Shown here piece by piece: positions 5,395 to 29,643 of a stretch of DNA of 64,000 nt. Both the position numbers and the translations under genes were made by a program. The stretch comes from Chamaelirium japonicum (Eukaryota; Streptophyta; Magnoliopsida; Liliales; Melanthiaceae): the NCBI GenBank assembly GCA_947650365.1, contig OX393555.1:78807995-78871994 (forward strand). The letters are read 5' to 3'. Below the pieces are notes generated by a model that was given only the letters and a program-made list of their open reading frames with translations, did no database searches and was not told the origin of the DNA. The first letter of the stretch is position 1; every line of letters starts with the position of its first letter.

Positions 5395-8100
5395 ATTCAT
5401 TCATACGATCCATTCTAATTCATTCGTACGATCCATTCTAATTCATTTGCACAATTTATTCTAATTCAATCGTACGATCCATTCTAATTCATTCGCACGA
5501 TCCATTCTAATTCATTTGCATGATCCATTCTAATTCATTCATACAATCCATTCTAATTCTTTCGCACGAATGTTTCCATTCTAATTTATTCGTACGATCC
5601 ACCCTAATTCCTTCGGATGATCCATTCTAATTGATTCGTACGATCAATTCTAATTCATTAGCACGATCCATTCTAATTCATTTGCACGAATATATCCATT
5701 CTAATTCATCGTACGATCAATTCTAATTCATTCGCACGAATGTATCCATTCTAATTCATTCGTACTATCCATTCTAATTCATTCGCACGATCCATTCTAA
5801 TTCATTCATACGATCCAATCAAATTCATTCGTACGATCCATTCTAATTCATTTGCATGATCCATTCTATATCATTCATACGATCCATTCTAATTCATTCG
5901 CACGATCCATTCTAATTCATTCGTACGATCCATTCTAATTCATTCGTACGATCCATTCTAATTCATTCGTACGATCCATTCTAATTCCTTCGTACCATCC
6001 ATTCTAATTCATTCATACGATCCATTCTAAATTATTCATACGATCCATTCTATTTCATTCATACAATCGATTCTATTTCTTTCGCATGAATGTATCTATT
6101 CTAATTCATTTGTACGATTCACCCTAATTCCTTTGTATGATCCATTCTAATTCATTCGCACGAATGTATCCATTTTATTTCATTCGTACGATCCATTAAA
6201 ATTCATTCATACGATCCATTCTAATTCATTCGCACGATCCATTCTAATTCATTCATACGATCCATTCTAATTCATTCGTACAATCCATTATAATTCATTT
6301 GCACGATCCATTCTAATTCATTCGCACGATCCGTTCTAATTCATTCGTACGATCCATTCTAATTCATTCATACGATCCATTCTATTTCATTCGTATAATC
6401 CTTTCTTACTCATTCGTACGATCCATTATAATTCATTCGCACGATCCATTCTAATTCATTCGCACGATCCATTCTAATTCATTCGTACGATCCATTCTAT
6501 TTCATTCGTACGATCCATTCTTACTCATTCGTACGATCCATTCTAATTTATTCGCAGGAATGTATCCGTTCTAATTCATTCGTACAATCCATTCTAATTC
6601 ATTCGCACAATCCATTCTACTTCATTCATACGATCCATTCTAATTCATTCGTACGATCCATTCAAATTCATTCATACAATCCATTCTAATTCTTTCGCAC
6701 GAATATATCCATTCTAATTCATTCGTACGATCCATTCTAATTCATTCGCACGATCCATTCTAATTCATTCATACGATCTATTCTAATTCATTCATACAAT
6801 CCATTCTAATTCTTTCGCACGAATGTATCCATTCTAATTCATTCGTACGATCCATTCTAATTCATTCGCACGATCCAATCTAATTCATTCGCATGATCCA
6901 TTCTAATTCATTCGCACGAATGTATCCAGTCTATTCTAATTCATTTGTACGATCCATTCTAATTCATTCATACGATCCATTCTAATTCATTCGTACGAAT
7001 GTATCCATTCTATTCTAATTCATTCGTACGATCCATTCTAATTCATTCGCACGATCCATTCTAATTCATTCGTACGATCCATTCTAATTCATTCGCACGA
7101 TCCATTCTAATTCATTCATACGATCCATTCCAATTCATTCATACAATCCATTCTAATTCTTTTGTACGAATGTATCCATTCTAATTCATTCGTACGATCC
7201 ACCTTAATTCCTTCGTATGATCCATTCTAATTCATTCGCACGAATGTTTCCATTCTAATTCATTCGTACGATCCATTCGACTTCATTCATATGATCCATT
7301 CTAATTCATTCATACGATCCATTCTGATTCATTTGCACGAATGTATTCATTCGCACAATCTATTCTAATTCATTCGGACGATCCATTCTAATTCATTCGT
7401 ACGATCCATTCTAATTCATTCGCACAATCTATTCTAATTTATTTGTATGATCCATTCTAATTCATTAGCACGATACATTCTAATTCATTCGTACGATCCA
7501 TTCTATTTCATTCGTACGATCCATTCTTACTCATTCGTACGATCCATTCTAATTCATTCGCACGATCCATTCAAATTCATTCATACGAACCATTCTTATT
7601 TATTCGTACGATTCGTTGTAATTCATTCGCACGATCCTTTCTAATTCATTCATACGATCCATTCTAATTCATTCATACAATCCATTCTAATTCTTTCACA
7701 CGAATGTATCCATTCTAATTCGTTCGTATGATCCACCCTAATTTTTTTGTATGATCCATTCTAATTCATTCGCACGAATGTATCCATTCTAATTCATTCG
7801 TACATCCATTCTAATTCATTCATACGATCCATTCTAATTCATTTGCACGATCCATTCTAATTCATTCGTACGATCCATTCTAATTCATTCATACGATCAA
7901 TTCTAATTCATTCGCACGATCTATTCTAATTCATTCGCACGTTCCATCCTAATTCTTTCGTACGATCCATTCTATTTCATTCGTATGATTCATTCTAATT
8001 CCTTCGTACGATCCATTCTAATTCATTCCCATGAATGTATCCATTCTAATTCATACATACGATCCATTCTTACTCATTCGTACGATCCATTCTAATTCCT
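5395..8100 (-). repeat. Satellite block, - orientation
   Basis: All units read GATCCATTCTAATTC. The block contains a perfect 14-bp palindrome, CATTCGTACGAATG, at 6988-7001, where a 28-mer has GTAC in place of GCAC. Units extended to CCATTCTATTCTAATTC (a 5-bp extra) occur near 6925 and 7010. It ends at AATTCCTACGATCGTGCG, a flip at CGATCG. It is homologous to 10772-13541. Confidence 0.95.
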
Positions 8101-10771
8101 ACGATCGTGCGAATAAAATAGAATGGATTGTATGAATGAATTAGAATAGATTGTAAGAATGAATTAGAGTGGATACATTCATGGGAATGAATTAGAATGG
8201 ATCGTACGAAGGAATTAGAATGGATTATACGAATAAAATAGAATGGATCGTACGAAGGAATTAGAATGGATCGTACGAAGGAATTAGAATGGATCGTACG
8301 AATGAATTAGAATAGTTTGTGCGAATGAATCAGAATGGATACATTCGTGCGAAAGAATTAGAATGGATACATTCGTACGAAGGAATTAGAATGGATCGTA
8401 TGAATGAATTAGAATGGATCGTACGAATGAATTAGAATGGATCGTATGAATGAATTCGAATGGATCATACGAATGAAATAGAATGGATATATTCGTGCGA
8501 ATGAATTAGAATGGATCATACGAAGGAATTAGGGTGGATCGTACAAATGAATTAGAATGGATACATTTGTGCGAAAGAATTAGAATGGATTGTATGAATG
8601 AACTAGAATGAATCGTATGAAAGAATTAGAATGGATCGTGCGAATGAATTAGAATGGATCGTACGAATGAATTAGAATAGATTTTATGAATGAATTAGAA
8701 TGGATCGTGCGAATGAATTAGAATGGATCGTACGAATGAATTAGAATAGAATGGATACATTCGTGCGAATGAATTAGAATGGATCGTACGAATAAGTAAG
8801 AATGGATCGTACGAATGAAATAGAATGGATCGTACGAATGAATTAGAAAGGATCGTGCTAATGAATTAGAATGGATCGTACGAATGAATTAGAATAGATT
8901 GTGCGAATGAATTAGAATGGATCGTACGAATGAATTATAATGGATACATTCGTGCGAATGAATTAGAATGGATCGTATGAATGAATTAGAATGGATCATA
9001 TGAATGAATTAGAATGGATCGTGCGAATGAATTAGAATGGATCGTACGAATGAATTAGAATGGATAAATTCGTGCGAATGAATTAGAATGGATAGTACGA
9101 ATCAGTAAGAATGGATCGTACGAAAGAAATAGAATGGATCGTACGAATGAATTAGAATGGATCGTGCTAATGAATTAGAATGGATCGTACGAATGAATTA
9201 GAATAGATTGTGCGAATGAAATAGAATGGATCGTACGAACGAATTAGAATGGATCGTATGAATGAATTAGAATGGATCGTGCGAATGAATTAGAATGGAT
9301 CGTACGAATGAATTAGAATGGATACATTCGTGCGAATGAATAAGAATGGATCGTACGAATGAGTAAGAATGGATCGTAGAATGAAATAGAATAGATCGTA
9401 TGAATGAATTAGAATGGATTGTACGAATGAATTAGAATGGATCGTATGAATGAATTAGAATGGATCGGGCGAATGAATTAGAATGGATCATACGAATGAA
9501 TTAGAATGGATACATTCGTGCGAATGAATTAGAATGATTCATACGAATGAGTAAGAATGGATCGTACGAATGAAATAGAATGGATCGTACGAATGAATTA
9601 GAATGGATCGTGCGAATGAATTAGATTGGATCGTCCGAATGAATTAGAATGGATCGTACGAATGAATTAGAATGGATACATTCGTGTGAATGAATTAGAA
9701 TGGATCGTATGAATGAATTCGAATGAATCGTACGTATGAATTAGAATGGATCATACAAATGAATTAGAATAGATCGTATGAATGAATTAGAATGGATCGT
9801 GCGAATGAATTAGAATGGATCGTATGAATAAATTAGAATGGATATATTCGTGCGAAAGAATTAGAATGGATTGTATGAATGAATTAGAATGGATCGTACG
9901 AATGAATTAGAATGGATCGTATGAATGAATTAGAATGGATCGTGCGAATGAATTAGAATGGATCGTACGAATGAATTAGAATGGATACATTCGTGCGAAT
10001 GAATTAGAATGGATCGTATGAATGAGTAAGAATGGATCGTACGAATGAAATTGAATGGATCGTACGAATGAATTAGAATGGATCGTACGAATGAATATGA
10101 TTGGATCGTGCGAATGAATTAGATTGGATCATACGAATGAGTAAGAATGGATCGTACGAATGAAATAGAATGGATCGTATGAATGAATTATAATGGATCA
10201 TACGAATTAAATAGAATGGATCGTATGAATGAATTAGAACGGATCATATGAATTAGAATGGATCGTATGAATGAATTAGAATGGATCGTGCTAATGAATT
10301 ATAATGGATCGTACGAATGAATTAGAATGGATCATACGAATGAATTTGAATGGATCGTATGAATAAATTAGAATAGATCGTGCGAATGAATTAGAAGGGA
10401 TCGTACGAATGAATTAGAATGGGTACATTCGTGCGAATGAATTTGAATGGATCGTACGAATGAGTAAGAATGGATCGTACGAATGAAATAGAATGGATCG
10501 TACGAAGGAATTAGAATAGATTGTGCGAATGAATTAGATTGGATCGTGCGAATGAATTAGAAGGGATCGTACAAATGAATTAGAATGGATACATTCGTGC
10601 GAATGAATTAGAATGGAAACATTCATGCGAATGAATTAGAATGGATCGTGCAAATGAATTAGAATGGATCGTAGGAATGAATTAGAATGGATCGTTTGAA
10701 TGAATTAGAATGGATCGTACGAATGAATTAGAATGGATACATTCTTGCGAAAGAATTAGAATAGATCATGG
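8101..10771 (+). repeat. Satellite block, + orientation
   Basis: The block opens at the CGATCG flip with GCGAATAAAATAG and a CATTCATGGGAATG 28-mer near 8171. From about 8380 it follows 2691-5394 unit by unit, at an offset of 5,689 bp up to 9100 and of 5,379 bp from about 10245. It ends at CATGGTAATTCATTC. Confidence 0.95.
8757..8945 (+). repeat. 189-bp higher-order repeat, 8-mer (+)
   Basis: This is the exact counterpart of 3068-3256 at an offset of 5,689 bp, with the same AGAAT extra before its first 28-mer. It belongs to the second copy of the 5.4-kb duplication. Confidence 0.9.
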
Positions 10772-13541
10772 TAATTCATTCATACGATCCATTCTAATTC
10801 ATTCGTACGATCCATTCTAATTCATTCGCACAATCTATTCTAATTCATTCGTATGATCCATTCTAATTCATTCGCACGATCCATTCTAATTCATTTGCAC
10901 GATCCATTCTAATTCATTAATACAATCCATTCTAATTCTTTCGCACGAATGTTTCCATTCTAATTCATTCGTACGATCCACCCTAATTCCTTCGTATGAT
11001 CCATTCTAATTCATTCGTACGATCCATTCTAATTCATTAGCACGATCCATTCTAATTCATTCGCACGAACGTATCCATTCTAATTCATCGTACGATCCAT
11101 ATTCTAATTCATTCACACGAATGTATCCATTCTAATTCATTCGTATGATCCATTCTAATTCATTCGCATGATTCATTCTAATTCATTCATACGCTCCATT
11201 CAAATTCATCTGTACGATCCATTCTAATTCATTCGCATGATCCATTCTAATCATTCATACGATCCATTCTAATTCATTCATACAATCCTTTATAATTCTT
11301 TTGCACGAATATATTCATTCTAATTCCTTCGTACGATCCATTCTAATTCATTCATACACTCCATTCTAATTTATTCATACGATCCATTCTAATTAATTCA
11401 TACAATCTATTCTATTTCTTTCGCACGAATGTATCTATTCTAATTCATTTGTACGATCCACCCTAATTCCTTCGTATGATCCATTCTAATTCATTCGCAC
11501 GAATGTATCCATTCTAATTCATTCGTACGATCCATTCAAATTCATTCATACGATCCATTCTAATTCATTCGCATGATCCATTCTAATTCATTCATACGAT
11601 CCATTCTAATTCATTCGCACGATCCATTCTAATTCATTCGTACCATCCATTCTATTTCATTCGTACGATCCATTCTTACTCATTCGTACGATCCATTCTA
11701 ATTCATTCGCATGAATGAATCCGTTCTAATTCATTCGTACGATCCATTCTAATTCATTCGAACGACCCATTCTAATTTATTCATACGATCCACTCTAATT
11801 CATTCGTACGATCCATTCAAATTCATTCATACAATCCATTCTAATTCTTTCGCACGAATGTATCCATTCTAATTCATTAGTACGATCCATTCTAATTCAT
11901 TCGCACGATCCATTCTAATTCATTCATACGATCCATTCTAATTCATTCATACAATCCATTCTAATTCTTTCGCACGAATGTATCCATTCTAATTCATTCG
12001 TACAATCCATTGTAATTCATTCGCACGATCCAATCTAATTCATTCGCACGATCCATTCAAATTCATTCGCATGAATGTATCCAGTCTTTTCTAATTCATT
12101 CATACGATCCATTCTAATTCATTCGTACGATCCATTCTAATTCATTCGTACGAATGTATCCATTCTATTCTAATTCATTCGTACGATCCATTCTAATTCA
12201 TTCGCACGATCCATTCTAATTCATTCGCACGATCCATTCTAATTCATTCGTACGATCCATTCTAATTCATTCGCACAATCCATTCTAATTCATTCATACG
12301 ATCCATTCTAATTCTTTTGCACGAATGTATCCATTCTAATTCATTCGTACGATCCACCCTAATTCCTTCGTATAATCCAATCTAATTCATTCGCACGAAT
12401 GTATCCATTCTAATTCATTCGTACGATCTATTCGAATTCATTCATACTATCCATTCTAATTCATTCATATAATCCATTCTAATTCATTCATACGATCCAT
12501 TCTAATTCATTCGCACGAATGTATTCATTCTCACAATCTATTCTAATTTATTCGTACGATCCATTCTAATTCATTAGCACGATCCATTCTAATTCATTCG
12601 TACGGTCCATTCTATTTCATTCATACGATCCATTCTTACTCATTCCTACAATCCATTCTAACTCATTCGCACGAATGTATCCATTCTATTTCATTCGTAC
12701 GATCCATTCTAACTCATTCATACGATCCATTCTAATTCATTCGTACGATCCATTCTAATTCATTTGCACAATCTATTCTAATTCATTCTTACGTTCCATT
12801 CTAATTTATTAGCACGATCCATTCTAATTTATTCGTACGATCCATTCTAATTCATTAGCACGATCCATTCTAATTTATTCGTACGATCTATTCTATTTCA
12901 TTCGTACGATCCATTCTTACTCATTCGTACGATCCATTCTAATTCATTCGCACGAATATAACCATTCTAATTTATTCGTACGATCCATTCTAATTCATTC
13001 GCACGATCCATTCTAATTCATTCGTACGATCCATTCTTATTTATTCGTATGATCCATTGTAATTCATTCGCACGATCCATTCTAATTCATTCATACGATC
13101 CATTCTAATTCATTCATACAATCCATTCTAATTCTTTCACATGAATGTATCCATTCTAATTCATTCGTACGATCCACCCTAATTTCTTCGTATGATCCAT
13201 TCTAATTCATTCGCACGAATGTATCCATTCTAATTCATTCATCCATCCATTCTACATCATTCATACGATCCATTCTAATTCATTTGCATGATCCATTATA
13301 ATTCATTCGTATGATCCATCCTAATTCATTCGTACGATCCATTCTAATTCATTCGCACGATCCATTCTAATTCATTCGCACATTCCATTCTAATTCCTTC
13401 GTAGGATCCATTCTATTTCATTCGTATGATCCATTCTAATTCCTTCGTACGATCCATTCTAATTCATTCCCATGAATGTATCCATTCTAATTCATACATA
13501 CGATCCATTCTTACTCATTCGTACGATCCATTTTAATTCCT
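10772..13541 (-). repeat. Satellite block, - orientation
   Basis: This is the second copy of block 5395-8100, with the same opening order of units and the same CCAGTCT-plus-5-bp oddity (near 12083; first copy near 6928). It ends at AATTCCTACGATCGTGCG, the same flip as at 8101, 5,441 bp downstream. Confidence 0.95.
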
Positions 13542-15326
13542 ACGATCGTGCGAATGTAATAGAATGGATCGTATGAATGAATTAGAATAGATTGTGCGAA
13601 GGAATTAGAGTGGATACATTCATGGGAATGAATTAGAATGGATCGTACGAAGTAATTAGAATGGATCATACGAATGAAATAGAATGGATCGTACGAAGGA
13701 ATTACAATGGATCGTACGAAGGAATTAGAATGGATCGTAAGAATAAATTAGAATAGATTGTGCGAATGAATTAGAATGGATGGTACGAATGAATTAGAAT
13801 AGATACATTCGTGCGAAAGAATTAGAATGGATTGTATGAATGAATTAGAATGAATACATTCGTGCGAAGGAATTAGAATGGATCGTACGAATGGATCATA
13901 CGAATGAATTAGAATTAAATAGAATGGATCGTACAAATGAATTAGAAAGGATCTTGCTAATGAATTAGAATGGATCGTACGAATGAATTAGAATAGATTG
14001 TGCGAATGAATTAGAATGGATCGTACGAATGAATTAGAATGGATACATTCGTGCGAATGAATTAGATTGGATCATATGAATGAATTAGAATGGATCGTAC
14101 ATATGAATTAGAATGGATACATTCATGGGAATGAATTAGAATGGATCGGACGAAGGAATTAGAATGGATCGTACGAATGAATTAGGTTGGATCGTGCGAA
14201 TGAATTAGAATGGATACATTCGTGCGAATGAATTAGAATAGATCGCATGAATTAATTAGAATGGATCGTGCGAATGAATTAGAATGGATCGTACGAATGA
14301 ATTAGAATGGATCATATGAATGAATTAGAATGGATCGTGCGAATGAATTAGAATGGATCGTACGAATGAATTAGAATGGATACATTCGTGCGAATGAATT
14401 AGAATGGATCGTACGAATGAGTAAGAATGGATCATACGAATGAAATAGAATAGATCGTATGAATGAATTAGAATGGATCATGCTAATGAATTAGAATGGA
14501 TCGTACGAATGAATTCGACTAGATTGTGCGAATGAATTAGAATGGATCGTATGAATGAATTAGAATGGATCGTACGAATAAATTAGAATGGATACATTCG
14601 TGCGAATGAATTAGAATGGATCGTACGAATGAGTAAGAATGGATCGTATGAATGAAATAGAATAGATCGTACGAGTGAATTAGAATGGATCGTGCTAATG
14701 AATTAGAATGGATCATACGAATGAATTAGAATAGATTGTGCGAATGAATTAGAATGGATCGTACGAATGAATTACAATGGATCGTATGAATGAATTAGAA
14801 TGGATTGTGCGAATGAATTAGAATGGATCATACGAATGAATTAGAATGGATACATTCATGCGAATGAATTAGAATAGATCGTACGAATGAGTAAGAATGG
14901 ATCGTACGAATGAAATAGAATGGATCATGCTAATGAATTAGAATCGATCGTACGAATAAATTAGAATAGATTGTGCGAATGAATTAGAATGGATCGTACG
15001 AATGAATTAGAATGGATTATAGGAATGAATTAGAATGGATCGTGCGAATGAATTAGAATGGATCGTATGAATGAATTAGAATGGATCATACGAATGAATT
15101 AGAATGGATAAATTCGTGCGAATGAATTAGAATGGATTGTACGAATGAATTAAAATGGATCGTACGAATGAATTAGAATGGATCGTGCTAAAGAATTAGA
15201 ATGGATCGTACGAATGGATTAGAATAGATCGTATGAATGAATTAGAATAGTTCGAATGAATGAATTAGAATGGATCGAACGAATGAGTAATAATGGATCG
15301 TACGAATGAAATAGAATGGATCGAAC
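13542..15326 (+). repeat. Satellite block, + orientation
   Basis: It starts like 8101 (CGATCGTGCGAAT, then a CATTCATGGGAATG 28-mer) but jumps near 13900-13920 to a stretch matching 8820 onward, including the shared GAATTAGAAAGGATC unit. It is thus a shortened third copy of the 5.4-kb unit. It ends GGATCGAACGTATGATCC, a flip at a GTAC-like site. Confidence 0.93.
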
Positions 15327-16623
15327 GTATGATCCATTCTAATTCATTCATTCGATCCATTCTAATTCATTCGCACGAATGTATCCATTCTAATTTAATC
15401 GTACGATCAAATCTAATTCATTCGCACAATCTATTCTAATTCATTCGTACCATCTATTGTATTTTAATCGCACGATCCATTCTAATTCTTTCGTACGATC
15501 CATTCTAATTCATTCATATAATCCATTCTAATTCTTTTGTACGATCCATTCTAATTCATTCCTACGATCCATTCTAATTCCTTCGTACGATCCATTCTAA
15601 TTCATTCATACGATCGATTCTAATTCATTCGTACGATTCATTTTAATTCATACGTATGATCCATTTGAATTTATTCATACGATCCATTCTAATTCATTCA
15701 TACGATCCATTCTAATTCATTCACACGAATGTATCCATTCTAATTCATTCGTACGATCCATTCTAATTCATTCGCATGATCCAATCTAATTCTTTCGCAC
15801 GATCCATTCTAATTCATTCGTACGATCCATTCTATTTCATTCGTACGATCCATTCTTACTCATTCGTACGATCTATTCTAATTCATTCGTACGATCCATT
15901 CTATTTCATTAGCACAATCCATTCTAATTCATTCGTACGATCCATTCTAATTCATTCGTATGATCCATTCTAATTCATTTGTACGATCCATTCTTATTCA
16001 TTTGTACGATCCATTCTAATTCATTCATACAATCCATTCTAATTCTTTTGCACGAATGTATGCATTCTAATTCATTCGTATTATCCATTCTAATTCCTTT
16101 GTATGATCCATTCTAATTCTTTCATACGATCAATTCTAATTCCTTCGTACGATCTATTCTAATTCATTCCCAAGAATGTATCCATTCTAATTCATACGTA
16201 CGATCCATTCTAATTTATTCATACGATCATTCATACGATCCATTCCAATTCATTCGTACGATACATTCTAATTCATTCATAAGATCCATTCTAATTCATT
16301 CGTACGATCCATTCTAATTCATTCGTACGAATGTATCCATTCAAATTCATTCGTACGATCCATTCTAATTCATTCGCATGATCCATTCTAATTCATTCAT
16401 ACGATCCATTCTAATTCATTCGTACTATCCAATCTATTCTAATTCATTCCCATGAATGTATCCATTCTAATTCATTCATATGATCCATTTTAATTCATTC
16501 ATACGATCCATTCTAATTCATTCGCACGAATGTATCCATTCTAATTCATTCGTTTGATCCATTCTAATTCATTTATACGATCCATTCTAATTCATTCATA
16601 CGATCCATTCTAATTCATTCGTA

Positions 16624-16648
16624 TGGATACATTCATGCGAAGGAATTC
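16624..16648 (+). repeat. One-monomer inverted inset (+)
   Basis: A single 28-mer-type unit in + direction (GGATACATTCATGCG followed by AAGGAATT) sits inside a - block, joined as CGTATGGATAC on the left and GGAATTCATTC on the right. The same inset is at 34117-34140 (offset 17,493 bp), so it predates that duplication. Confidence 0.88.
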
Positions 16649-16701
16649 ATTCTAATTCATTCGCACAATCTATTCTAATTCATTCATTCGCACGATCTAT
16701 T

Positions 16702-16718
16702 CTAATTAGAATACATTC
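16702..16718. repeat. Micro-inversion at CTAATTAG
   Basis: CTAATTAG is an 8-bp palindrome formed by - units meeting a short + piece (ATTAGAATACATTC). It is copied at 34195, again 17,493 bp away. A monomer fragment CCTAATACATTC lies about 90 bp further on in both copies. Confidence 0.8.
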
Positions 16719-17110
16719 TAATCCATTCGTACGATCCATTCTAATTCATTCATATGGTCCATTCTAATTCATTTGTATGATCCATTCTAATTCCTAATAC
16801 ATTCTAATTCATTCTAATTCATACATACGATCCAATCTAATTCATTTGCACGATCTAATCTAATTCATTCATTCGATCCATTCTAATTCATTCATACAAT
16901 CCATTCTAATTCTTTCGCACGAATGTATCCATTCTAATTCATTCGTACGATCCATTTTAGTTCATTCGCACGATCCATTCTAATTCATTCATACGATCCA
17001 TTCTAATTCATACATACGATCCATTCTAATTCATTCATATGATCCATTCTATTTCATTCGTATGATCCATTCTAATTCCTTCGTACGATCCATTATAATT
17101 CATTCCCATG

Positions 17111-17207
17111 AATGTATCCATTCTAATTCATACGTACGATCCATTCTAATTCATTTATATGATCCAATCTAATTCATTCATACGATCCATTCTAATTCAT
17201 TCGCACG
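17111..17207 (-). repeat. 97-bp higher-order repeat, 4-mer with CCCATGAATG
   Basis: AATGTATCC to AATGTATCC is 97 bp (28 + 3 x 23). The left 28-mer is the distinct form ATTCCCATGAATG, followed by ATTCATACGTACG and a GATCCAATC unit. The phrase recurs with the same neighbours near 45010, 48800, 53380, 55700, 57830 and 60420, and in + form (ATTCATGGGAATG) near 8171 and 13616. It is usually next to CTTCGTACG units. Confidence 0.88.
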
Positions 17208-17396
17208 AATGTATCCATTCTAATTCATTCGTACGATCCATTCTAATTCTTTCGCACAATCTATTCTAATTCATTCGTATGATCCATTCTAATTCATTAG
17301 CATGATCCATTCTAATTCATTCGTACGATCCATTCTATTTCATTCGTACGTTCCATTCTTACTCATTCGTACGATCCATTCTAATTCATTCGCACG
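17208..17396 (-). repeat. 189-bp higher-order repeat, 8-mer (-)
   Basis: AATGTATCC to AATGTATCC is 189 bp. Read on the + strand the variants come as CACAATCTATTC, TTAGCATG, TATTTCATTC and TTACTCATTC, which is the + strand 8-mer in reverse complement. The higher-order repeat was therefore formed before, or carried through, the inversions. Confidence 0.9.
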
Positions 17397-18150
17397 AATG
17401 TATCCATTCTAATTCATTCGTACGATCCATTCTAATTCATTCGCACGATCCATTCTAATTCATTCATATGATCCAATCTAATTCATCCATACAATCCATT
17501 CTAATTCTTTCGCACGAATGTATCCATTCTAATTCTTCCGTACGATCCACCCTAATTCCTTCGTATGATCCATTCTAATTCATTCGCACGAATGTATCCA
17601 TTCTAATTCATTCGTACGATCCATTCGAATTCATTCATACGATCCATTCTAATTCATTCATACGATCCATTCTAATTCATTCGTACGATCCATTATAATT
17701 CATTCGCACGATACATTCTAATTCATTCATACGATACATTCTAATTCATTCGTACGATCCATTCTAATTCATTCATACGATCCATTCTAATTCCTTCGTA
17801 TGATCCATTCTAATTCATTCGCACGAATGTATCCATTCTAATTCATTCGTACAATCCATTCGAATTCATTCATACGATCCATTCTATTTCATTCGTACGA
17901 TCCATTCTAATTCATTCGCACGAATGTATCCATTCTAATTCATTCGTACGATCCATTCTAATTCATTTGCATGATCCAATCTAATTCATTCGCACGATCC
18001 ATTCTAATTCATTCGTACGATCCATTCTATTTCATTAGTACGATCCATTCCTACTCATTCGTACGAACCATTCTAATTCATTCGCAAGAATGTATCCATT
18101 CTAATTCATTCGTACGATCCATTCTAATTCATTCGCACGATCCATTCTAA

Positions 18151-18934
18151 TGATCATGCGAATGAATTAGAATGGACCGTACGAATGAATTAAAATGGAT
18201 CGTATGAATGAATCAGAATGGATCGTGCGAATGAATTAGAATGGATCGTACGAATGAATTAGAATGGATACATTCATGCGAATGAATTAGAATGGATTGT
18301 ATGAATGAATTAGATTGTATGAATTAGAATAGATCATACGAATGAGTAAGAATGGGTCGTATGAATGAATTAGAATGGATCGTGCGAATGAATTAGAATA
18401 GATCGTGCGAATGAATTAGAATGGATACATTTGTGCGAATGAATTAGAATGGATCGTACGAATGAATTAGAATGGATCGTATGAATGAATTAGATTGAAT
18501 CGTGCGAATGAATTAGAATGGATCGTATGAATGAATTAGAATGGATACATTCGTGCGAATGAATTAGAATGGATCGTATGAATAAATTAGATTGGATCGT
18601 ATGAATGAATTAGAATGGATCGTGCGAATGAATTAGAATGGATCGTACGAATAAATTAGAATGTATCGTACGAATGAATTAGAATGGATACATTCGTGCG
18701 AATGAATTAGAATGGATCATACGAAGGAATTAGGGTGGATTGTACGAATGAATTAGAATGGATACATTCGTGCGAAAGAATTAGAATGGATCGTATGAAT
18801 GAATTAGAATGGATCATACGAATGAATTAGAATGGATCGTATGAATGAATTAGAATGGATCATGTGAATGAATTAGAATGGATCGTACGAATGAGTAAGA
18901 ATGGATCGTACAAATGAAATAGAATGGATCGTAC
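18151..18934 (+). repeat. Satellite block, + orientation
   Basis: It opens TGATCATGCGAATG with the marker GGACCGTACG and an AATCAG unit. The first 100 bp differ from 23065-23164 at 2 positions and from 36235-36334 at 5 (counted by eye). It ends GGATCGTAC directly joined to GTACGATCC, so the flip is at GTAC. Confidence 0.95.
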
Positions 18935-19474
18935 GTACGATCCATTGTAATTCATTCATACGATCCATTCTAATTCATTCGCACGAGTGTATCCATTCTA
19001 ATTCATTTGTACGATCTATTCTAATTCATTTGCACAATCTATTCTAATTCATTCGTATGATCCATTCTAATTCATTCGCATGATCCATTCTAATTCATTT
19101 GAACAATCCATTCTAATTCATTCATACAATCCATTCTAATTCTTTTACACGAATGTATCCATTCTAATTCATTCGTACGATCCATTCTAAATCCTTCGTA
19201 CAATCCATTCTAATTTTTTCGTACGATCTATTCTAAATCATTCATACGATCCATTCTAATTCATTCGTACGATCCATTCTAATTCATACGTACGATCCAT
19301 TCGAATTCATTCATACGATCCATTCTAATTCATTCATACAATCCATTCTAACTCATTCGCACGAATGTACCCATTCTAATTCATTCGTACGATCCATTCT
19401 AATTCATTCGCATGATCCAAACTAATTCTTTCATATGATCCATTCTATATCATTCGTATGATCCATTCTAATTT
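18935..19474 (-). repeat. Satellite block, - orientation
   Basis: A short - block between a GTAC/GTAC flip and an AATTTATGAATGAG flip. It is copied at 23849-24383 and 36991-37480, with the same flanking flips. Confidence 0.93.
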
Positions 19475-19597
19475 ATGAATGAGTAAGATCAATTCGTGCG
19501 AATGATTAGAATGGATCACGAATGAATTAGAATGGATCGTGCTAATGAATTAGAATGGATCGCACAAAGGAATGAATTAGAATGGATACATTCGTAC
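19475..19597 (+). repeat. Satellite block, + orientation (about 120 bp)
   Basis: A scrambled + block: TGAATGAGTAAGATC, then TGCGAATGATTAG, GGATCACGAATG (a unit that has lost GTA) and CGCACAAAGG. It ends in the 28-mer CATTCGTAC fused to AATCTATTC. Copies lie at 24384-24507 and 37481-37604. Confidence 0.92.
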
Positions 19598-19819
19598 AAT
19601 CTATTCTAATTCATTCGTACGATCCATTCTAATTCATTCATACGATCCATTCTAATTTATTCATTCGATCCATTCTAATTCATATTCATTCGTACGATCC
19701 ATTCTAATTCATTCGTACGATCCATTCTAATTCATTCGTACGATCCATTCTAATTCATTCGTACGATCTCTTCTAATTCATTCGTTCGATCCATTCTAAA
19801 TCATTCACACGATCCTTTC
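19598..19819 (-). repeat. Satellite block, - orientation
   Basis: A run of - units with several ATTCGTTCG and ATTCGTACG forms. It ends GATCCTTTCTTGAATGG, where two units meet head-on at CATTCT/GAATGG. This copy is a little longer than its homologues at 24508 and 37605. Confidence 0.92.
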
Positions 19820-20167
19820 TTGAATGGATCGTACGAATGAGTAAGAATGGATCGTACGAATGAAATAGAATTGATCGTACGAATGAATTAGAATGGATCG
19901 TGCTAATGAATTAGAATGGATCGTACGAATGAATTATAATAGATTGTACGTATGAATTAGAATGGAGCGTACGAATGAATTAGAATGGATCTTGCGAATG
20001 AATTAGAGTGGATCTTACGAATGAATTAGAATGGATCGTACGAATGAATTAGAATGGATCGTACGAATGAATATGAATTAGAATGGATCGTATGAATGAA
20101 TTAGAATGGATCGTACAAATGAATTAGAATGGATCGTACGAATGAATTAGAATGGATTGTACGAATG
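19820..20167 (+). repeat. Satellite block, + orientation
   Basis: It opens with GTAAG, AAATAG and TGCTAATG units and contains the fused ATGAATATGAATTAG near 20070. It ends GGATTGTACGAATGTATCC, where a + unit merges into a reversed 28-mer. It is homologous to 24686-25028 and 37805-38149. Confidence 0.93.
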
Positions 20168-20402
20168 TATCCATTCTAATTCATTTCTTTGTGCGGTCCA
20201 TTCTAATTCATTCGTACGATCCATTCTAATTCATTCATACGATCCATTCTAATTCATTCGTACGATCCATTCTAATTCATTCTCACAATCTATTCTAATT
20301 TATTCGTACGATCCATTCTAATTTATTAGCACGATCCATTCTAATTGATTCGTACGATCCATTCTATTTCATTCGTACGATCCATTCTTATTCATTCGTA
20401 GG
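20168..20402 (-). repeat. Satellite block, - orientation
   Basis: Starts with the unusual TTTCTTTGTGCGG unit (20180-20193), a marker repeated at 25050 and 38171. It ends ATTCGTAGGATCATATG, a flip at GATC. Confidence 0.92.
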
Positions 20403-20456
20403 ATCATATGAATGAATTAGAATGAATTAGAATGGATCGTATGAATTAGAATGGAT
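20403..20456 (+). repeat. Satellite micro-block, + orientation
   Basis: About two and a half units (ATGAATTAG repeated with shortened spacing, GGATCGTATGAATTAG), ending GGATTCATTCGTAC. Identical in layout to 25267-25318 and 38413-38463. Confidence 0.92.
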
Positions 20457-23064
20457 TCATTCGTACGATCCATTCTAATTCATTAGCATGATCCATTCTA
20501 ATTCATTCGTACGATCCATTCTATTTCATTCGTACGATCCATTCTTACTCATTCGTACGATCCAATCTAATTCATTCATTCGATCCATTCTAATTCATTC
20601 GCACGAATGTATCCATTCTAATTCATTCGTACGATCCATTCTAATTCATTCGCCCAATCTATTCTAATTCATTTATACGATCCATTCTAATTCATTAGCA
20701 CGATTCATTCTAATTTATTCGTACGATCCATTCTAATTCATTTGTACGATCCATTCTAATTCATTTCCATGAATGTATCTATTCTAATTCATACGTACGA
20801 TCCATTCTAATTCATTCATATAATCCAATCTAATTCATTCATACGATCCATTCTAATTAATTCGTACGATCCATTCTAATTCATTCGCACGATCCATTCT
20901 AATTCATTTATACGATCCATTCTAATCCATTCGTACGATCCATTGTAATTCATTTGCACGATCCATTCTAATTCATTCATACGATCTAATCTAATTCATT
21001 CGTATGATCCATTCTAATTCCTTCGTACGATCCATTCTAATTCATTCGCACGATCCATTCTAATTCATTTGCACGATCCATTCTAATTCATTCATACAAT
21101 CCATTCTAATCCTTTTGCACGAATGTATCCATTCTACTTCATTCGTACGATCCATTCTAATTCCTTCGTACGATCCATTCTAATTCCTTCGTACGATCCA
21201 ATGTATTTCATTCGTATGATCCATTCTAATTCCTTCGTACGATCCATTCATTCGTACGATCCATTCTAATTCTTTCGCACAAACTATTCTAATTCATTCG
21301 TGCGATCCATTCTAATTCATTCGTACGATCCATTCTAATTCATTAGCACAATCCATTCTAATTCATTCATACGATCCATTCTAATTCGTACGATCCATTC
21401 TATTTCATTCATACGTTCCATTCTTACTCATTCATACGATCCATTCTAATTCATTCGCACGAATGTATCCATTCAAATTCATTCGTACGATCCATTCATT
21501 CGTATGATCCATTCTAATTCTTTTGCACAATCTATTCTAATTCATTCGTACGATCCATTCTAATTCATTCATATGATCTATTCTAATTCATTAGCACGAT
21601 CCATTCTAATTCATTCATACGATCCATTCTAATTCATACGATCCATTCTAATTCATTCATATGATCCATTATATTTCATTTGTATGATCCATTCTAATTC
21701 ATTCGTACGATCCATTCGAATTCATTCATACGATCCATTCTAATTCATTCGCACAATCTATTCTAATTCATTCGTACGATCTATTCTAATTCATTAGCAC
21801 GATTGACTCTAATTCATTCGTACGATCCATTCTATTTCATTCGTATGATCTATTCTTACTTATTCGTACGATCCATTCTAATTCATTCGCAGGAATGTAT
21901 CCATTCTAATTCATTCGTACGATCCATTCTAATTCATTCACACAATCTAATTCATTCGTACGATCCATTCTAATTCATTAGCACGATCTATTCTAATTCA
22001 TTCACTATTTCATTCGTACGATCCAATCTTACTCATTCGTACGATCCATTCTAATTTATTCGCACAATCTATTCTAATTCATTCGTACGATCCATTCTAA
22101 TTCCTTTATTCTTATTAATTCGTACGATCCATTCTAATTCATTTGTACGATCCATTCTAATTCTTTCGCACAATCTATTCTAATTAATTCGTACGATCCA
22201 TTCTAATTCATTAGCATGATCCATTCTAATTCATTCGTACGATCCATTCTATTTCATTCGTACGTTCCATTCTTACTTATTCGTACGATCCATTCTAATT
22301 CATTCGCACGAATGTATCCATTCTAATTCATTCGTACGATCCATTCTAATTCATTCGCACGATCCATTCTAATTCATTCATATGATCCATTCTAATTCAT
22401 CCATACAATCCATTCTAATTCTTTCGCACGAATGTATCCTTTCTAATTCTTCCGTACGATCCACCCTAATTCCTTCGTATGATCCATTCTAATTTATTCG
22501 CATGAATGTATCTATTCTAATTCATTCGTACGATCCATTCGAATTCATTCATACGATCCATTCTAATTCATTCATACGATCCATTCTAATTCATTTGTAC
22601 GATCCATTCTAATTCATTCGCACGATACATTCTAATTCATTCATACGATACATTCTAATTCATTCGTACGATCCATTCTAATTCATTCATACGATCCATT
22701 CTAATTCCTTCGTATGATCCATTCTAATTCATTCGCACGAATGTATCCATTCTAATTCATTCGTACGATCCATTCGAATTCATTCATACGATCCATTCTA
22801 TTTCATTCGTACGATCCATTCTAATTCATTCGCACGAATGTATCCATTCTAATTCATTCGTACGATCCATTCTAATTCATTTGCACGATCCAATTTAATT
22901 CATTCGCACGATCCATTCTAATTCATTCGTACGATCCATTCTATTTCATTAGTACGATCCATTCTTACTCATTCGTACGAACCATTCTAATTCATTCGCA
23001 CGAATGTATCCATTCTAATTCATTCGTACGATCCATTCTAATTCATTCGCACGATCCATTCTAA
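20457..23064 (-). repeat. Satellite block, - orientation
   Basis: Contains many shortened units (for example ATCCATTCATTCGTACG near 21244 and 21485, and ATTCACTATTTCATTCG near 22002). The stretch from about 22145 to 23064 repeats 17230-18150 at 4,914 bp, so a duplication join lies inside this block near 22100-22160. It ends CTAATGATCATGCG. Confidence 0.93.
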
Positions 23065-23848
23065 TGATCATGCGATTGAATTAGAATGGACCGTACGAAT
23101 GAATTAGAATGGATCGTATGAATGAATCAGAATGGATCGTGCGAATGAATTAGAATGGATCGTACGAATGAATTAGAATGGATACATTCATGCGAATGAA
23201 TTAGAATGGATCATATGAATGAATTAGATTGTATGAATTAGAATGGATCATACAAATGAGTAAGAATGGATCGTATGAATGAATTAGAATGGATCGTGCG
23301 AATAAATTAGAATAGATCGTGCGAATGAATTAGAATGGATACATTTGTGCGAATGAATTAGAATGGATCGTACGAATGAATTAGAATGGATCGTATGAAT
23401 GAATTAGATTGGATCGTGCGAATGAATTAGAATGGATCGTATGAATGAATTAGAATAGATACATTCGTGCGAATGAATTAGAATGGATCGTATGAATAAA
23501 TTAGATTGGATCGTATGAATGAATTAGAATGGATCGTGCGAATGAATTAGAATGGATCGTACGAATAAATTAGAATGTATCGTACGAATTAATTAGAATG
23601 GATACATTCGTGCGAATGAATTAGAATGGATCATACGAAGGAATTCGGGTGGATTGTACGAATGAATTAGAATGGATACATTCGTGCGAAAGAATTAGAA
23701 TGGATCGTATGAATGAATTAGAATGGATCATACGAATGAATTAGAATGGATCGTATGAATGAATTAGAATGGATCATGTGAATGAATTGGAATGGATCGT
23801 ACGAATGAGTAAGAATGGATCGTACAAATGAAATAGAATGGATCGTAC
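23065..23848 (+). repeat. Satellite block, + orientation
   Basis: Second copy of 18151-18934, with the same TGATCATGCG start and GGACCGTACG marker. It ends GGATCGTAC joined to ATACGATCC; the CpG at the flip has become CA. Confidence 0.95.
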
Positions 23849-24383
23849 ATACGATCCATTCTAATTCATTCATACGATCCATTCTAATTCATTCGCACGA
23901 ATGTATCCATTCTAATTCATTCGTACGATCCATTCTAATTCATTCGCACAATCTATTCTAAGTCATTCGTACGATCCATTCTAATTCATTCGCACGATCC
24001 ATTCTAATTCATTTGAACAATCCATTCTAATTCATTCATACAATCCATTGTAATTCTTTTGCACGAATGTATCCATTCTAATTCATTCGTACAATCCATT
24101 CTAATTCCTTCGTACAATCCATTCTAATTTTTTCGTACGATCTATTCTAAATCATTCATACGATCCATTCTAATTCATTCGTACGATCCATTCTAATTCA
24201 TACGTACGATCCATTCAAATTCATTCATACGATCCATTCTAATTCATTCATACGATCCATTCTAATTCATTCGCACGAATGTATCCATTCTAATTCATTC
24301 GTACGATCCATTCTAATTCATTCGCATGATCCAAACTAATTCTTTCATACCATTCTATATCATTCGTATAATCCATTCTAATT
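23849..24383 (-). repeat. Satellite block, - orientation
   Basis: Second copy of 18935-19474. A unit near 24345 has lost a few bases (TTTCATACCATTC) compared with the first copy. Confidence 0.93.
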
Positions 24384-24507
24384 TATGAATGAGTAAGATC
24401 CATTCGTGCGAATGATTAGAATGGATCACGAATGAATTAGAATGGATCGTTCTAATGAATTAGAATAGATTGCACAAAGGAATGAATTAGAATGGATACA
24501 TTCGTAC
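24384..24507 (+). repeat. Satellite block, + orientation (about 120 bp)
   Basis: Second copy of 19475-19597, with the same broken units (GGATCACGAATG, CACAAAGG). It ends CATTCGTAC joined to AATCCATTC. Confidence 0.92.
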
Positions 24508-24685
24508 AATCCATTCTAATTCATTCGTACGATCCATTCTAATTCATTCGTACGATCCATTCTAATTTATTCATACGATCCATTCTAATTCATATTCATT
24601 TGTACGATCCATTCTAATTCATTCGTACGATCTATTCTAATTCATTCGTTCGATCCGTTCTAAATCATTCACACGATCCATTCTT
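24508..24685 (-). repeat. Satellite block, - orientation
   Basis: Homologue of 19598-19819 but about 40 bp, or two units, shorter. It ends CCATTCTTGAATGG. Confidence 0.92.
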
Positions 24686-25028
24686 GAATGGATCGTACGA
24701 ATGAGTAAAAATGGATCGTACGAAGGAAATAGAATTGATCGTACGAATGAATTAGAATGGATCGTGCTAATGAATTAGAATGGATCGTACGAATAAATTA
24801 GAATAGATTGTACGTATGAATTAGAATGGATCGTACAAATGAATTAGAATGGATCTTGCGAATGAATTAGAGTGGATCTTACGAATGAATTAGAATGGAT
24901 CGTACGAATGAATTAGAATGGATCGTATGAATGAATATGAATTAGAATGGATCGTATGAATGAATTAGAATGGATCGTACAAATGAATTAGAATGGATCG
25001 TACGAATGAATTAGAATGGATTGTACGA
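24686..25028 (+). repeat. Satellite block, + orientation
   Basis: Homologue of 19820-20167, including the ATGAATATGAATTAG fusion near 24928 and the GGATTGTACGAATGTATCC exit. Confidence 0.93.
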
Positions 25029-25266
25029 ATGTATCCATTCTAATTCATTCTTTGTGCGGTCCATTTTAATTCATTCATACGATCCATTCTAATTCATTCA
25101 TACGATCCATTGTAATTCATTCGTACGATCCATTCCATTCATTCTCATAATCTATTCTAATTTATTCGTACGATCCATTCTAATTCATTAGCACGATCCA
25201 TTCTAATTAATTCGTACGATCCATTCTATTTCATTCGTACGATCCATTCTTATTCATTCGTACGAT
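25029..25266 (-). repeat. Satellite block, - orientation
   Basis: Homologue of 20168-20402 with the CTTTGTGCGG marker at 25050. One unit is shortened to CCATTCCATTCATTC near 25132. It ends CGTACGATCATATG. Confidence 0.92.
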
Positions 25267-25318
25267 CATATGAATGAATTAGAATGAATTAGAATGGATC
25301 GTATGAATTAGAATGGAT
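25267..25318 (+). repeat. Satellite micro-block, + orientation
   Basis: Copy of 20403-20456, flanked by GATCATATG and GGATTCATTCGTACG. Confidence 0.92.
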
Positions 25319-27138
25319 TCATTCGTACGATCCATTCTAATTCATTAGCACGATCCATTCTAATTCATTCGTAAAATCCATTCTATTTCATTCGTACGAT
25401 CCATTCTTACTCATTCGTACGATCCAATCTAATTCATTCATACGATCCATTCTAATTCATTCGCACGAATGTATCCATTCTAATTCATTCGTACGATCCA
25501 TTCTAATTCATTCGCACAATCTATTCTAATTCATTTATACGATCCATTCTAATTCATTAGCACGATTCATTCTAATTTATTCATACGATCCATTCTAATT
25601 CATTTGTACGATCCATTCTAATTCATTTCCATGAATGTATCTATTCTAATTCATACGTACTATCCATTCTAATTAATTCATACGATCCAATCTAATTCAT
25701 TCATACGATCCGTTCTAATTAATTCGTACGATCCATTTTAATTCATTCGCACGATCCATTCTAATTCATTCATACGATCCATTCTAATCCATTCCTACGA
25801 TCCATTGTAATTCATTTGCATGATCCATTCTAATTCATTCATACGATCTAATCTAATTCATTCGTATGATCCATTCTAATTCATTCGCACGATCCATTCT
25901 AATTCATTTGCACGATCCATTCTAATTCATTCATACAATCCATTCTAATCCTTTTGCACGAATGTAACCATTCTACTTCATTCGTACGATCCATTCTAAT
26001 TCCTTCGTACGATCCATTCTAATTCCTTCGTATGATCCAATGTATTTCATTCATATGATCCATTCTAATTCCTTCGTACGATCCATTCATTCGTACGATC
26101 CATTCTAATTCCTTCGCACAAACTATTCTAATTCATTCGTGCGATCCATTCTAATTCATTCGTACGATCCATTCTAATTCATTAGCACAATCCATTCTAA
26201 TTCATTCATACGATCCATTCTAATTCGTACGATCCATTCTATTTCATTCATACGTTCCATTCTTACTCATTCGTACGATCTATTCTAATTCATTCGCACG
26301 AATGTATCCATTCAAATTCATTCGTACGATCCATTCATTCGTATGATCCATTCTAATTCTTTTGCACAATCTATTCTAATTCATTCGTACGATCCATTCT
26401 AATTCATTCATACGATCTATTCTAATTCATTAGCACGATCCATTCTAATTCATTCATACGATCCATTCTAATTCTTACTATCCATTCTAATTCAGTCATA
26501 CGATCCATTATATTTCATTCGTATGATCCATTCTAATTCATTCGTACGATCCATTCGAATTCATTCATACGATCCATTCTAATTCATTCGCACAATCTAT
26601 TCTAATTCATTCGTACGATCTATTCTAATTCATTAGCATGATTGACTATAATTCATTCGTACGATCCATTCTATTTCATTCGTATGATCTATTCTTACTT
26701 ATTCGTACGATCCATTCAAATTCATTCGCAGGAATGTATCCATTCTAATTCATTCGTACGATCCATTCTAATTCATTCACACAATCTAATTCATTCGTAC
26801 GATCCATTCTAAATTCATTAGCACGATCTATTCTAATTCATTCACTATTTCATTCGTACGATCCATTCTTACTCATTCGTACGATCCATTCTAATTCATT
26901 CGCACAATCTATTCTAATTCATTCGTACGATCCATTCTAATTCCTTTATTCTTATTAATTCGTACGATCCATTCTAATTCATTCGCACAATCTATTCTAA
27001 TTCATTCGTACGATCCATTCTAATTCCTTCATTCTTATTCATTCGTACGATCTATTCTAATTCATACGTACGATCCATTCTAATTCTTTCATACGATCCA
27101 ATCTAATTCATTCATACGATCCATTCTAATTCATTCGG
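25319..27138 (-). repeat. Satellite block, - orientation
   Basis: Homologue of 20457 to about 22140, then continues into ATTCCTTTATTCTTATT and ATTCCTTCATTCTTATT units (26941 onward) that the first copy has only in part. It ends ATTCGGTCATACGAATG. Confidence 0.93.
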
Positions 27139-27573
27139 TCATACGAATGAGTAAGAATGGATCGTACGAATGAATTAGAATGGATACATTCGTGCAAATG
27201 AATTAGAATGGATCGTATGAATGAATTAGAATGGATCTTTTGAATGAATTAGAATGGATCGTGTGAATGAATTAGAATGGATCGTACGAATGAATTAGAA
27301 TGGATCGTATGAATGAATTAGAATAGATCGTGCGAATGAATTGGAATGGATCGTACGAATGAATTATAATGGATACATTCGTGCGAATGAATTAGAATGG
27401 ATCGTACGAATGAGTAAGAATAGATCATAACAATGAAATAGAATGGATCAAACGAATGAATTAGAATGGATCGTGCGAATGAATTAGATTGGACCGTACG
27501 AAGGAATTAGAATGGATACATTCGTGCGAATGAATTAGAATGGATCGTATGAATGAATTAGAATGGATTGTAC
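27139..27573 (+). repeat. Satellite block, + orientation
   Basis: Starts with a GAGTAAG unit and ends GGATTGTAC joined to GTACGATCC. Homologous to 40416-40850. Confidence 0.93.
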
Positions 27574-27960
27574 GTACGATCCATTCTATTTCATTCGTAC
27601 GATCCATTCTTACTCATTCGTATGATCCATTCTAATTTATTCGCACGATCCATTCTAATTCATTCATACGATCCATTCTATTTCATTCGTATGATCCATT
27701 CTAATTCCTTCGTATGATCCATTCTAATTCATTCCCATGAATGCATCCATTCTAATTCATTCGTACGATCCATTCTAATTCATTCGCACGAATGTATCCA
27801 TTCTAATTCATTCGTACGATCCATTCTAATTCATTCGCACAATCTATTCTAATTCATTCGTACGATCCATTCTAATTCATTAGTACGATCCATTCTAATT
27901 CATTCATACAATCCATTCTAATTCATTCGCACAATCTATTCTAATTCATTCGTACGATCC
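27574..27960 (-). repeat. Satellite block, - orientation
   Basis: Begins at the GTAC/GTAC flip and includes an ATTCCCATGAATG 28-mer. It ends CGTACGATCCATACGAATG. Homologous to 40851-41237 (offset 13,277 bp). Confidence 0.93.
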
Positions 27961-29643
27961 ATACGAATGAATTAGAATGGATACATTCGTGCGAATGAAT
28001 TCGAATGGATCGTACGAATGAGTAAAAATGGATCGTACGAATAAAATACAATGGATCGTACGAATGAATTAGAATGGATCATGCTAATGAATTAGAATGG
28101 ATCGTACGAATGAATAAGAATGGATCGTGCGAATGAATTAGAATGGATCGTGCGAATGAATTAGAATGGATCGTACGAATGAATTAGAATGGATACATTC
28201 GTGCGAATGAATTAGAATGGATACATTCGTGCGAATGAATTAGAATGGATCGTACGAATGAGTAAGAATAGATCGTACGAATGAAATAGAATGGATCGTA
28301 TGAATGAGTTAGAATGGATCGTACGAATGAATTAGAATGGATCGTATGAATGAATTAGAATGGATCGTGCGAATGGATTAGAATGGATCGTACGAATGAA
28401 TTAGAATGGATACATTCGTGCGAATGAATTAGAATGGATTGTACGAATGAGTAAGAATGGATCGTACGAATGAAATAGAATTGATCGTACGAATGAATTA
28501 GAATGGATCGTGCGAATGAATTAGATTGGATCGTGCGAATGAATTAGAATGGATCGTACGAATGAATTAGAATGGATACATTCGTGCGAATGAATTAGAA
28601 TGGATCGTATGAATGAATTAGAATGGATCGTATGAATGAATTCGAATGAATCGTACGTATGAATTAGAATGGATCGTACAAATAAATTAGAATAGATCAT
28701 ATGAATGAATTAGAATGGATCGTGCGAATGAATTAGAATGGATCGTACGAATGAATTAGAATGGATACATTCGTGCAAAAGAATTAGAATGGATTGTATG
28801 AATGAATTAGAATGGATCGTACGAATGAATTAGAATGGATCGTATGAATGAATTAGAATGAATCGTGCGAATGAATTAGAATGGATCGTAAGAATGAATT
28901 AGAATGGATACATTCGTGCGAATGAATTAGAATTGTTCGTACGAATGAGTAAGAATGGATCGTACGAATAAAATAGAATGGATCGTACGAATGAATTAGA
29001 ATGGATCGTACGAATGATTATGATTGGATCGTGCGAATAAATTAGATTGGATCGTACGAATGAGTAAGAATGGATCGTACGAACGAAATAGAATGGATCG
29101 TATGAATGAAATAGAATGGATCATACGAATAAAATAGAATGGATCGTATGAATGAATTAGAATGGATCGTATGAATTAGAATGGATCGTATGAATGAATT
29201 AGAATGGATCGTACGAATGAATTAGAATGGATCGTACGAATGAATTAGAATGGATCGTATGAATGAATTAGAATAGATCGTGCAAGTGAATTAGAAGGGA
29301 TCGTACGAATGAATTAGAATGGGTACATTCGTGCAAATGAATTAGTATGAATCGTACGAATGAGTAAGAATGGATCGTACGAATGAAATAGAATGGATCG
29401 TACGAATGAATTAGAATGGATTGTGCGAATGAATTAGATTGGATCGTGCGAATGAATTAGAATGGATTATACGAAAGAATTAGAATGGAAATATTCATGC
29501 GAATGAATTAGAATGGATTGTGCAAATGAATTAGAATGGATCATACGAATGAATTAGAATGGATCGTATGAATGAATTAGAATGGATCATACGAATGAAT
29601 TTGAATAGATACATTCGTGCGAAAGAATTAGAATGGATCATGC
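27961..29643 (+). repeat. Satellite block, + orientation
   Basis: Starts ATACGAATGAATTAG with 28-mers and GTAAAAATGG and AAATACAATGG units, the latter shared with 41238 onward. From about 28600 it follows 9700-10771 (for example TTCGAATGAATCGTACGTATG at 28641 and near 9718). It ends GATCATGCTAATTCATTC. Confidence 0.93.

Follow-up and report, generated by a model that had tools for sequence, protein, structure and literature searches.

Orientation flips at monomer palindromes suggest how a plant centromere satellite array may grow

The satellite array described here reverses direction about once per kb (213 flips in 264 kb), and these flips occur at the small palindromes of its monomer far more often than chance. 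The original prediction, which attributed the flips to strand or template switching through short self-complementary sites, is thus partly confirmed, in a weaker form than first stated. The enrichment persists after flips copied by duplication are collapsed, and it holds in two satellite stretches on different contigs. Moreover, three large inverted duplications with spacers have a flip at their inner edge. On balance we lean towards the view that the flips are old and young junctions of fold-back inverted duplications.

The window, by which we mean the whole 64-kb stretch analysed (G000:C7:78807995-78871994 of a 1.52-Gb genome; C7 and C1 below are contigs), consists of one tandem repeat from end to end, and the same repeat fills 100 kb on each side of it:

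1..64000, both strands: uninterrupted 23-bp satellite in alternating orientation, with plus-strand monomer GGATCGTACGAATGAATTAGAAT and a 28-bp variant.

The variant, GGATACATTCGTGCGAATGAATTAGAAT, differs from GGATCGTACGAATGAATTAGAAT by 5 extra bp and one A/G substitution, and 1,428 such 28-mers were collected in the 264 kb. Its five added bases complete an inverted repeat, CATTCG..CGAATG. The insert also lengthens the palindrome TCGTACGA to CATTCGTGCGAATG, by which the 28-mer might be read as a 23-mer plus a tiny template-switch product. GTAC is found in most monomers. In the consensus 23-mer only TCGTACGA, GATC and AATT are inverted microhomologies of at least 4 bp, and since all three are palindromes, the two categories almost coincide in this monomer. 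Deletions within same-strand stretches of the 264 kb recur at set registers (13 bp, 57 times; 4 bp, 49 times; 3 bp, 42 times). Beyond this region, the satellite was present in 4-kb probes of C7 at 78.40, 79.20, 79.60 and 84.00 Mb and absent from those at 77.0, 78.0, 80.5 and 82.0 Mb. One 60-mer of the satellite has 72,079 exact copies genome-wide, 36,482 on one strand and 35,597 on the other, which scales to about 161 Mb of 1,519 Mb, or about 11%, a rough figure extrapolated from one array.

Judged by its traits, this satellite is very probably Chio1/Chio2, the holocentromere satellite of Chionographis japonica. In the accessible text of the published account, Chio1/Chio2 has 23- and 28-bp monomers that differ by 5 bp and one substitution, lies in megabase-sized arrays of mixed forward and reverse orientation, makes up about 16-17% of the genome, and carries three and four dyad symmetries, with an 8-bp dyad predicted to pair between adjacent monomers; it counts 100 centromere units (Kuo et al. 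2023, PMC10264360). The window satellite shows the same two monomer lengths, likewise separated by a 5-bp indel and a single substitution, lies in mixed-orientation arrays and recurs in distant C7 probes; the 9-bp TTCGTACGA reported for Chio occurs in its minus-strand monomer, ATTCATTCGTACGATCC. Our analysis differs in that switch breakpoints were mapped and inverted duplications found, neither of which is reported in that text.

Flips were located by a two-strand circular hidden Markov model (HMM). In the window it gave 69, comprising 35 plus-to-minus and 34 minus-to-plus changes, in agreement with an earlier count of about 33 and 32 made by inspection. Two stretches fit the satellite model poorly, G000:C7:78890340-78890463 (124 bp, containing a local inverted repeat) and 78873044-78873058 (15 bp), and both probably yield spurious flips. 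Flips were then collapsed into families by the rare variants common to their flanks, a procedure supported by the finding that flip pairs strongly sharing flank variants nearly all have equal breakpoint register. The 69 flips of the window reduce to 41 families (43 with a stricter threshold) and the 213 of the 264 kb to 81 (68 with a looser one), because many were copied by block duplication. The copied groups are readily traced:

18152..20457: group of eight flips, with block copies at 23066-25319 and 36236-38464.

Similarly, three flips of 27137-27962 reappear at 40414-41239, and across 14941-27137 and 36236-41239 block duplications carry flip groups along with them. The block copies include a shift of about 4.9 kb at 89% identity and others 13 and 18 kb away at about 83-84%, over a background of about 82%. 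Same-orientation stretches 69 to 460 bp apart in the 264 kb have a median rare-variant sharing of 0.11-0.15, and the flanks of unrelated flips 0.12. Since nearby stretches share no more variants than unrelated flanks do, turnover of the array seems to involve multi-kb blocks rather than slippage of single monomers.

The individual flips of the window that bear on the palindromes are as follows:

18925..18945: plus-to-minus flip joining GGATCGTACG to TACGATCC (GTAC twice), copied at 23848 and 36992.
19589..19595: plus-to-minus flip via CATTCG of the 28-bp variant (non-palindromic); likewise at 25032 (CGAATG).
25264..25267: minus-to-plus flip at GATC; its family is also found at 20401 and 38409.
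42425..42440: plus-to-minus flip at TTGTACGA, with an 8-bp overlap.
42545..42556: minus-to-plus flip at TCGTACG, 118 bp past the flip at 42425..42440; its register fits a simple inversion.
43764..43769: plus-to-minus flip at GGATCC, with a GATC overlap.
44541..44546: plus-to-minus flip at GGATCC, with a GATC overlap.
45505..45508: minus-to-plus flip at GATC.
46240..46247: plus-to-minus flip at TCGTACGA.
46831..46836: plus-to-minus flip at GGATCC.
47332..47339: plus-to-minus flip at CGTACGA.
47716..47721: minus-to-plus flip at CGATCG.
49053..49056: minus-to-plus flip at AATT.
49687..49690: minus-to-plus flip at GATC.

The motifs named in the original prediction lie within a few bases of the coordinates it gave. 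Doubled GTAC was located at 18936, 27575 and 36992, CGTACG at 46244 and 47336, GGATCC at 43769, 44542 and 46835, and GATC or CGATCG at 8103, 13544, 25264, 38409, 40414, 45505, 47717 and 49687; the word at 20401 is GGATC after GTA. Its claim that many flips sit at GTAC- or GATC-type sites thus stands as to the motifs, whereas its raw counts were inflated by block duplication. By a strict measure, palindromic overlaps mark 12 of 41 families in the window, or 14 of 69 raw flips. The family of 18936 takes in 27575 and 36992. These doubled-GTAC flips share an overlap of only 2 bp (CG) in the register-based measure, their register's three families merge into one with looser clustering, and the copies may represent a few old events.

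For the statistics, the overlap at a flip was defined as the word compatible with both strands, and the strict class as overlaps of at least 4 bp containing a 4-bp palindrome. The overlap word list was derived from a model of the 23- and 28-mers and has no word in common with its reverse complement, one (median) copy per family was counted, and the null comprised random joins of real plus and minus pieces passed through the same pipeline (7,983 joins for the 264 kb). In the window, palindromic overlaps of at least 4 bp were found in 6 of 20 plus-to-minus families (null 2.1%, p = 2.4e-6) and 6 of 21 minus-to-plus families (null 2.3%, p = 5.3e-6). Across the 264 kb they mark 24 of 81 families (null 2.3%, p = 3e-20), or 23 if the lower-median copy is taken, and 16 of 68 with looser clustering (p = 3e-12). 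The palindromes concerned are chiefly TCGTACGA, GATC and AATT. An independent sample, comprising a 60-kb C1 array and four 4-kb C7 probes (two of them flip-free), gave 8 of 28 families (null 2.4%, p = 2e-7), all eight on C1. Its 33 families had been reduced to 30 by setting aside three related to the first C7 set, and to 28 (26 on C1, 2 on C7) by setting aside two in a non-satellite insert (C1 piece 37508 and 38379); the null was masked accordingly, an earlier version having taken in joins from that insert. The C1 array contains about 13 kb of such non-satellite sequence in total (piece L030 to L034, bases ~12980-13918 and ~27608-40214).

Three other measures were tried and set aside. The longest palindrome at a flip is enriched, yet its background is high since TCGTACGA is part of the monomer: 22% of random joins lie close to a palindrome of at least 8 bp, and GTAC is the centre of more than half of these. 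Because most monomers contain GTAC, its presence near a flip is weak evidence. A first overlap measure, built on the 11-mers of the window, gave 16 of 20 plus-to-minus against 6 of 21 minus-to-plus families; this asymmetry vanished with the register-based measure and is taken as a weakness of the 11-mers. A k-mer measure on the 264 kb returned overlaps of up to 59 bp, ascribed to undetected short flips in its word list, and was discarded.

Overlaps of at least 4 bp of any kind mark 36 of 81 families in the 264 kb against 5.8% of random joins. Enriched junction overlaps would also be expected if templates had been switched, through microhomology, between distant and oppositely oriented parts of the array (MMBIR/FoSTeS-like) with no local folding, a route we regard as rather unlikely for the flips in general. 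Under such distant switching, palindromes should not be favoured over other overlaps of the same length. Among 80 of the 81 families (one in a short non-satellite stretch was left out), overlaps of 4-5 bp were palindromic in 15 cases against 1.19 expected (12.7-fold) and non-palindromic in 2 against 2.06. Overlaps of 6-7 bp without a palindrome were enriched as well (8 against 0.46 expected in the same 80 families), most of them being the CATTCG/CGAATG arms of the 28-bp variant, themselves a dyad. These data qualify switching through self-complementary sites in both directions: the palindromic excess is strong and recurs in the independent sample, whereas 45-47 of the 81 families have overlaps below 4 bp, the longer non-palindromic overlaps are enriched, and only one of the three C7 duplication centres described below is palindromic. 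Zero overlap was found in 13 of 80 families.

The preference for 4-bp palindromes over other 4-bp inverted matches is also what site-directed cleavage would produce, if self-complementary 4-base overhangs (GATC, AATT, GTAC) were ligated to like ends in either orientation, and some flips carry doubled sites, GTACGTAC and GATCGATC, that look like filled-in ends. We nonetheless consider such cleavage very doubtful: we know of no nuclease of this kind in plant centromeres, the GTACGTAC families drop from three to one with looser clustering, and the three C7 centres have spacers and junctions without a doubled palindrome.

Breakpoint registers lead to a similar picture. The register was calculated as the sum of the last and first monomer phases modulo 23, a value unaffected by where within a shared word the break is placed, and one that an indel beside the flip can shift. 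After collapse, registers were non-uniform in the window (p = 0.004 for plus-to-minus and 0.018 for minus-to-plus flips) and in the 264 kb (p = 1.5e-4 and 3e-4; with looser clustering, 3.5e-4 and 0.006). The plus-to-minus and minus-to-plus registers also showed a correlation at shift -3. A uniform distribution after collapse had been named beforehand as the outcome that would refute the original prediction, and it was found in neither data set.

Registers also bear on in-place inversion, in which a segment is cut at two sites and rejoined the other way round. For a simple inversion the minus-to-plus register should equal the plus-to-minus register plus 2. Five of 19 unique adjacent pairs no more than 150 bp apart fit this expectation (e.g. 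42433/42551 and 44676/44708), two of the five looking like one pair read in both directions. Among all 126 unique adjacent pairs, however, 10 fit by family register against 6.9 expected (p = 0.19), and 12 by the pair's own registers against the same 6.9. As the three large events described next are duplications and not inversions, in-place inversion is improbable as a general explanation and accounts for at most a few short segments.

When inverted repeats of large size were sought, giant palindromes whose centres are flips emerged directly upstream of the window. The first of these C7 flips, 78713821, has a 7-bp overlap (TCGTACG), a loop of about 73 bp and arms of 5.0 kb at 92.7% identity, and is the only one of the three centres to use a palindromic site. 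The mirrored flips 78713664/78713912 beside it are images of each other, and 78713821 is taken as the centre flip. The second, 78749927, has an overlap of about 4 bp (ATTA, read by eye), a loop of about 152 bp, 11.2 kb aligned at 93.0% and a gapped match chain of about 35 kb. The third, 78785779, has a 2-bp overlap (GA), a loop of about 2.77 kb, 11.2 kb aligned at 95.5% and a gapped chain of about 33 kb. In the latter two, the flip coincides with the inner boundary of the right arm, to within 4 bp for the second and 1 bp for the third. In both, the loop is a continuation of the left arm: that of 78749927 contains no other flip, and most of that of 78785779 is still covered by the inverted block's mirror match, which extends to 78785366. 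Together they arrange a 33-35-kb block in direct, inverted and direct order (gapped match chains at 78715080-78749627, 78750057-78785366 and 78785821-78818969), the last copy of which ends inside the window:

1..10975: end of the third copy of the ~33-kb block (block series G000:C7:78715080-78818969).
10772..10975: mirror copy, by coordinates, of the centre flip C7:78749927 with about 200 bp.

Beyond about 10975 similarity falls, with scores of 0.64-0.83 against 0.88-0.97 to the left. The original prediction had missed these duplications, the centres of which lie outside the window. Further centres were found elsewhere: the C1 flip 1823714 has a mirrored flank score of 0.87 (best control 0.67) and a loop of 352 bp, at least three further C1 centres are marked by mirrored flip pairs, and the C7 pair 78951148/78952988 marks another.

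Fold-back reads do create palindromes in long-read data, and the centres might in principle reflect sequencing or assembly. Their arms differ by about 5-7%, from which they look like evolutionary events, not read artefacts. Diverged block copies share flips, and the published C. japonica assembly, presumably the one used here, was built from PacBio HiFi reads according to the accessible part of its description. An artefact is accordingly exceedingly unlikely.

The large duplications are readily compared with known rearrangements. In human fold-back inverted duplications, according to the text available, a spacer separates the copies and the junction shows inverted microhomology of 2-8 bp (Hermetz et al. 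2014, PMC3907307). The three C7 flips resemble them in having inverted copies, a single-copy spacer continuous with one arm, and junction microhomologies of 7, about 4 and 2 bp; they differ in their interstitial position within a satellite array, every unit of which carries the inverted homologies. In yeast, the accessible accounts describe inverted triplication by ODIRA as seeded by short interrupted inverted repeats (PMC4689423), and foldback inversions as seeded through hairpins (PMC7467729). The direct/inverted/direct layout of the 33-35-kb block recalls the ODIRA product, whereas its second junction (78785779), with a 2-bp overlap and a 2.77-kb loop, is unlike a short interrupted inverted repeat. 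Among satellites, the available text on Tribolium madens describes macro-dyad symmetries with a few predominant conserved inversion sites and subunits based on ~110 bp, most arrays comprising two subarrays, and states that such symmetries are documented only in Tribolium (PMC13081366). The satellite studied here is likewise arranged in inverted subarrays over tens of kb; unlike the T. madens arrays, it flips about once per kb and in many registers.

Typical flips lack such mirrored flanks. Mirrored arms at zero offset exceeded the 95% background level in only 3 of 63 families, and arms tested with monomer offsets exceeded background in only 5 of 53; tests at zero or small offset miss centres with spacers, which emerged in the large-inverted-repeat search. 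The lag values at 23 and 46 bp in the offset test are an alignment artefact and were left unused. A 4-kb search for mirrored flanks gave a median score of 0.677 against a control median of 0.679; the score was above that of every control (up to 14 each) in 38 of 420 tests, little above chance. Typical flips may be too old for mirrored arms to survive. Unmirrored arms at most flips also suit switching between distant templates, as do the unflipped copies of both flanks of 78785779 that exist elsewhere, about 15.5 kb apart. Against this, the mirror source of that flip is only 2.77 kb away. For flips too old to test, distant template switching is a possible origin.

The fold-back route that we prefer would begin with a single strand, either the resected end of a break or the nascent strand of a stalled fork, that folds back, anneals through a short inverted homology and is extended by copying. 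The product would be a mirror-image copy with a central loop of unduplicated DNA. Every 23-bp unit would supply the inverted homologies TCGTACGA, GATC and AATT, with CATTCG...CGAATG added by the 28-bp variant, and flips would concentrate at these sites because each unit supplies them. Annealing by itself would give a 4-bp palindrome no advantage over any other inverted match of that length; the scheme therefore needs, as a plausible further element, breakage or stalled forks at palindromes able to form hairpins, and palindromes probably raise the flip rate. It was presumably single-strand folding, rather than another form of inverted joining, that made the duplications, and most other flips probably arose by the same route. 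The families with overlaps below 4 bp and the many flips without mirrored arms above background stand against this reading. A palindrome is also not sufficient, since the accessible text of a comparison with the sister genus reports that its satellite, the Chama repeat of Chamaelirium luteum, shares TTCGTACGA and that its arrays keep one orientation (PMC12722358).

Parts of this picture are already published, namely the satellite, its mixed orientation, its dyads and the suggestion of hairpin-induced breakage; the last appears in the available text of the same 2025 comparison of two genera, which goes no further than suggesting that forks may be broken by hairpins of the shared TTCGTACGA (PMC12722358). 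Rearrangement by fold-back inverted duplication is likewise known, as are satellite macro-dyads in Tribolium. Our literature search, limited to the accessible portions of the sources, found no report that maps satellite orientation flips to monomer dyads and none that traces the switches of a centromeric satellite to fold-back duplication. Mapping the switches to palindromes, together with looped inverted duplications of 5-35 kb, makes the hairpin-breakage idea countable in any long-read centromere assembly.

We raise, tentatively, a further idea: that the Chio dyad suspected in centromere identity also drives array growth, each monomer being a fold-back seed and the 28-mer a frozen fold-back product one monomer long. 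If so, repair of breaks and stalled forks in centromere chromatin would yield inverted copies tens of kb long, as duplications and triplications, and the same repair would both alternate the orientation of the array and multiply it. Overall, these data bear on the expansion of centromeric satellite arrays and on the reason why some of them change direction about every kb, and the palindrome-centred flips suggest a way in which centromere arrays may grow.
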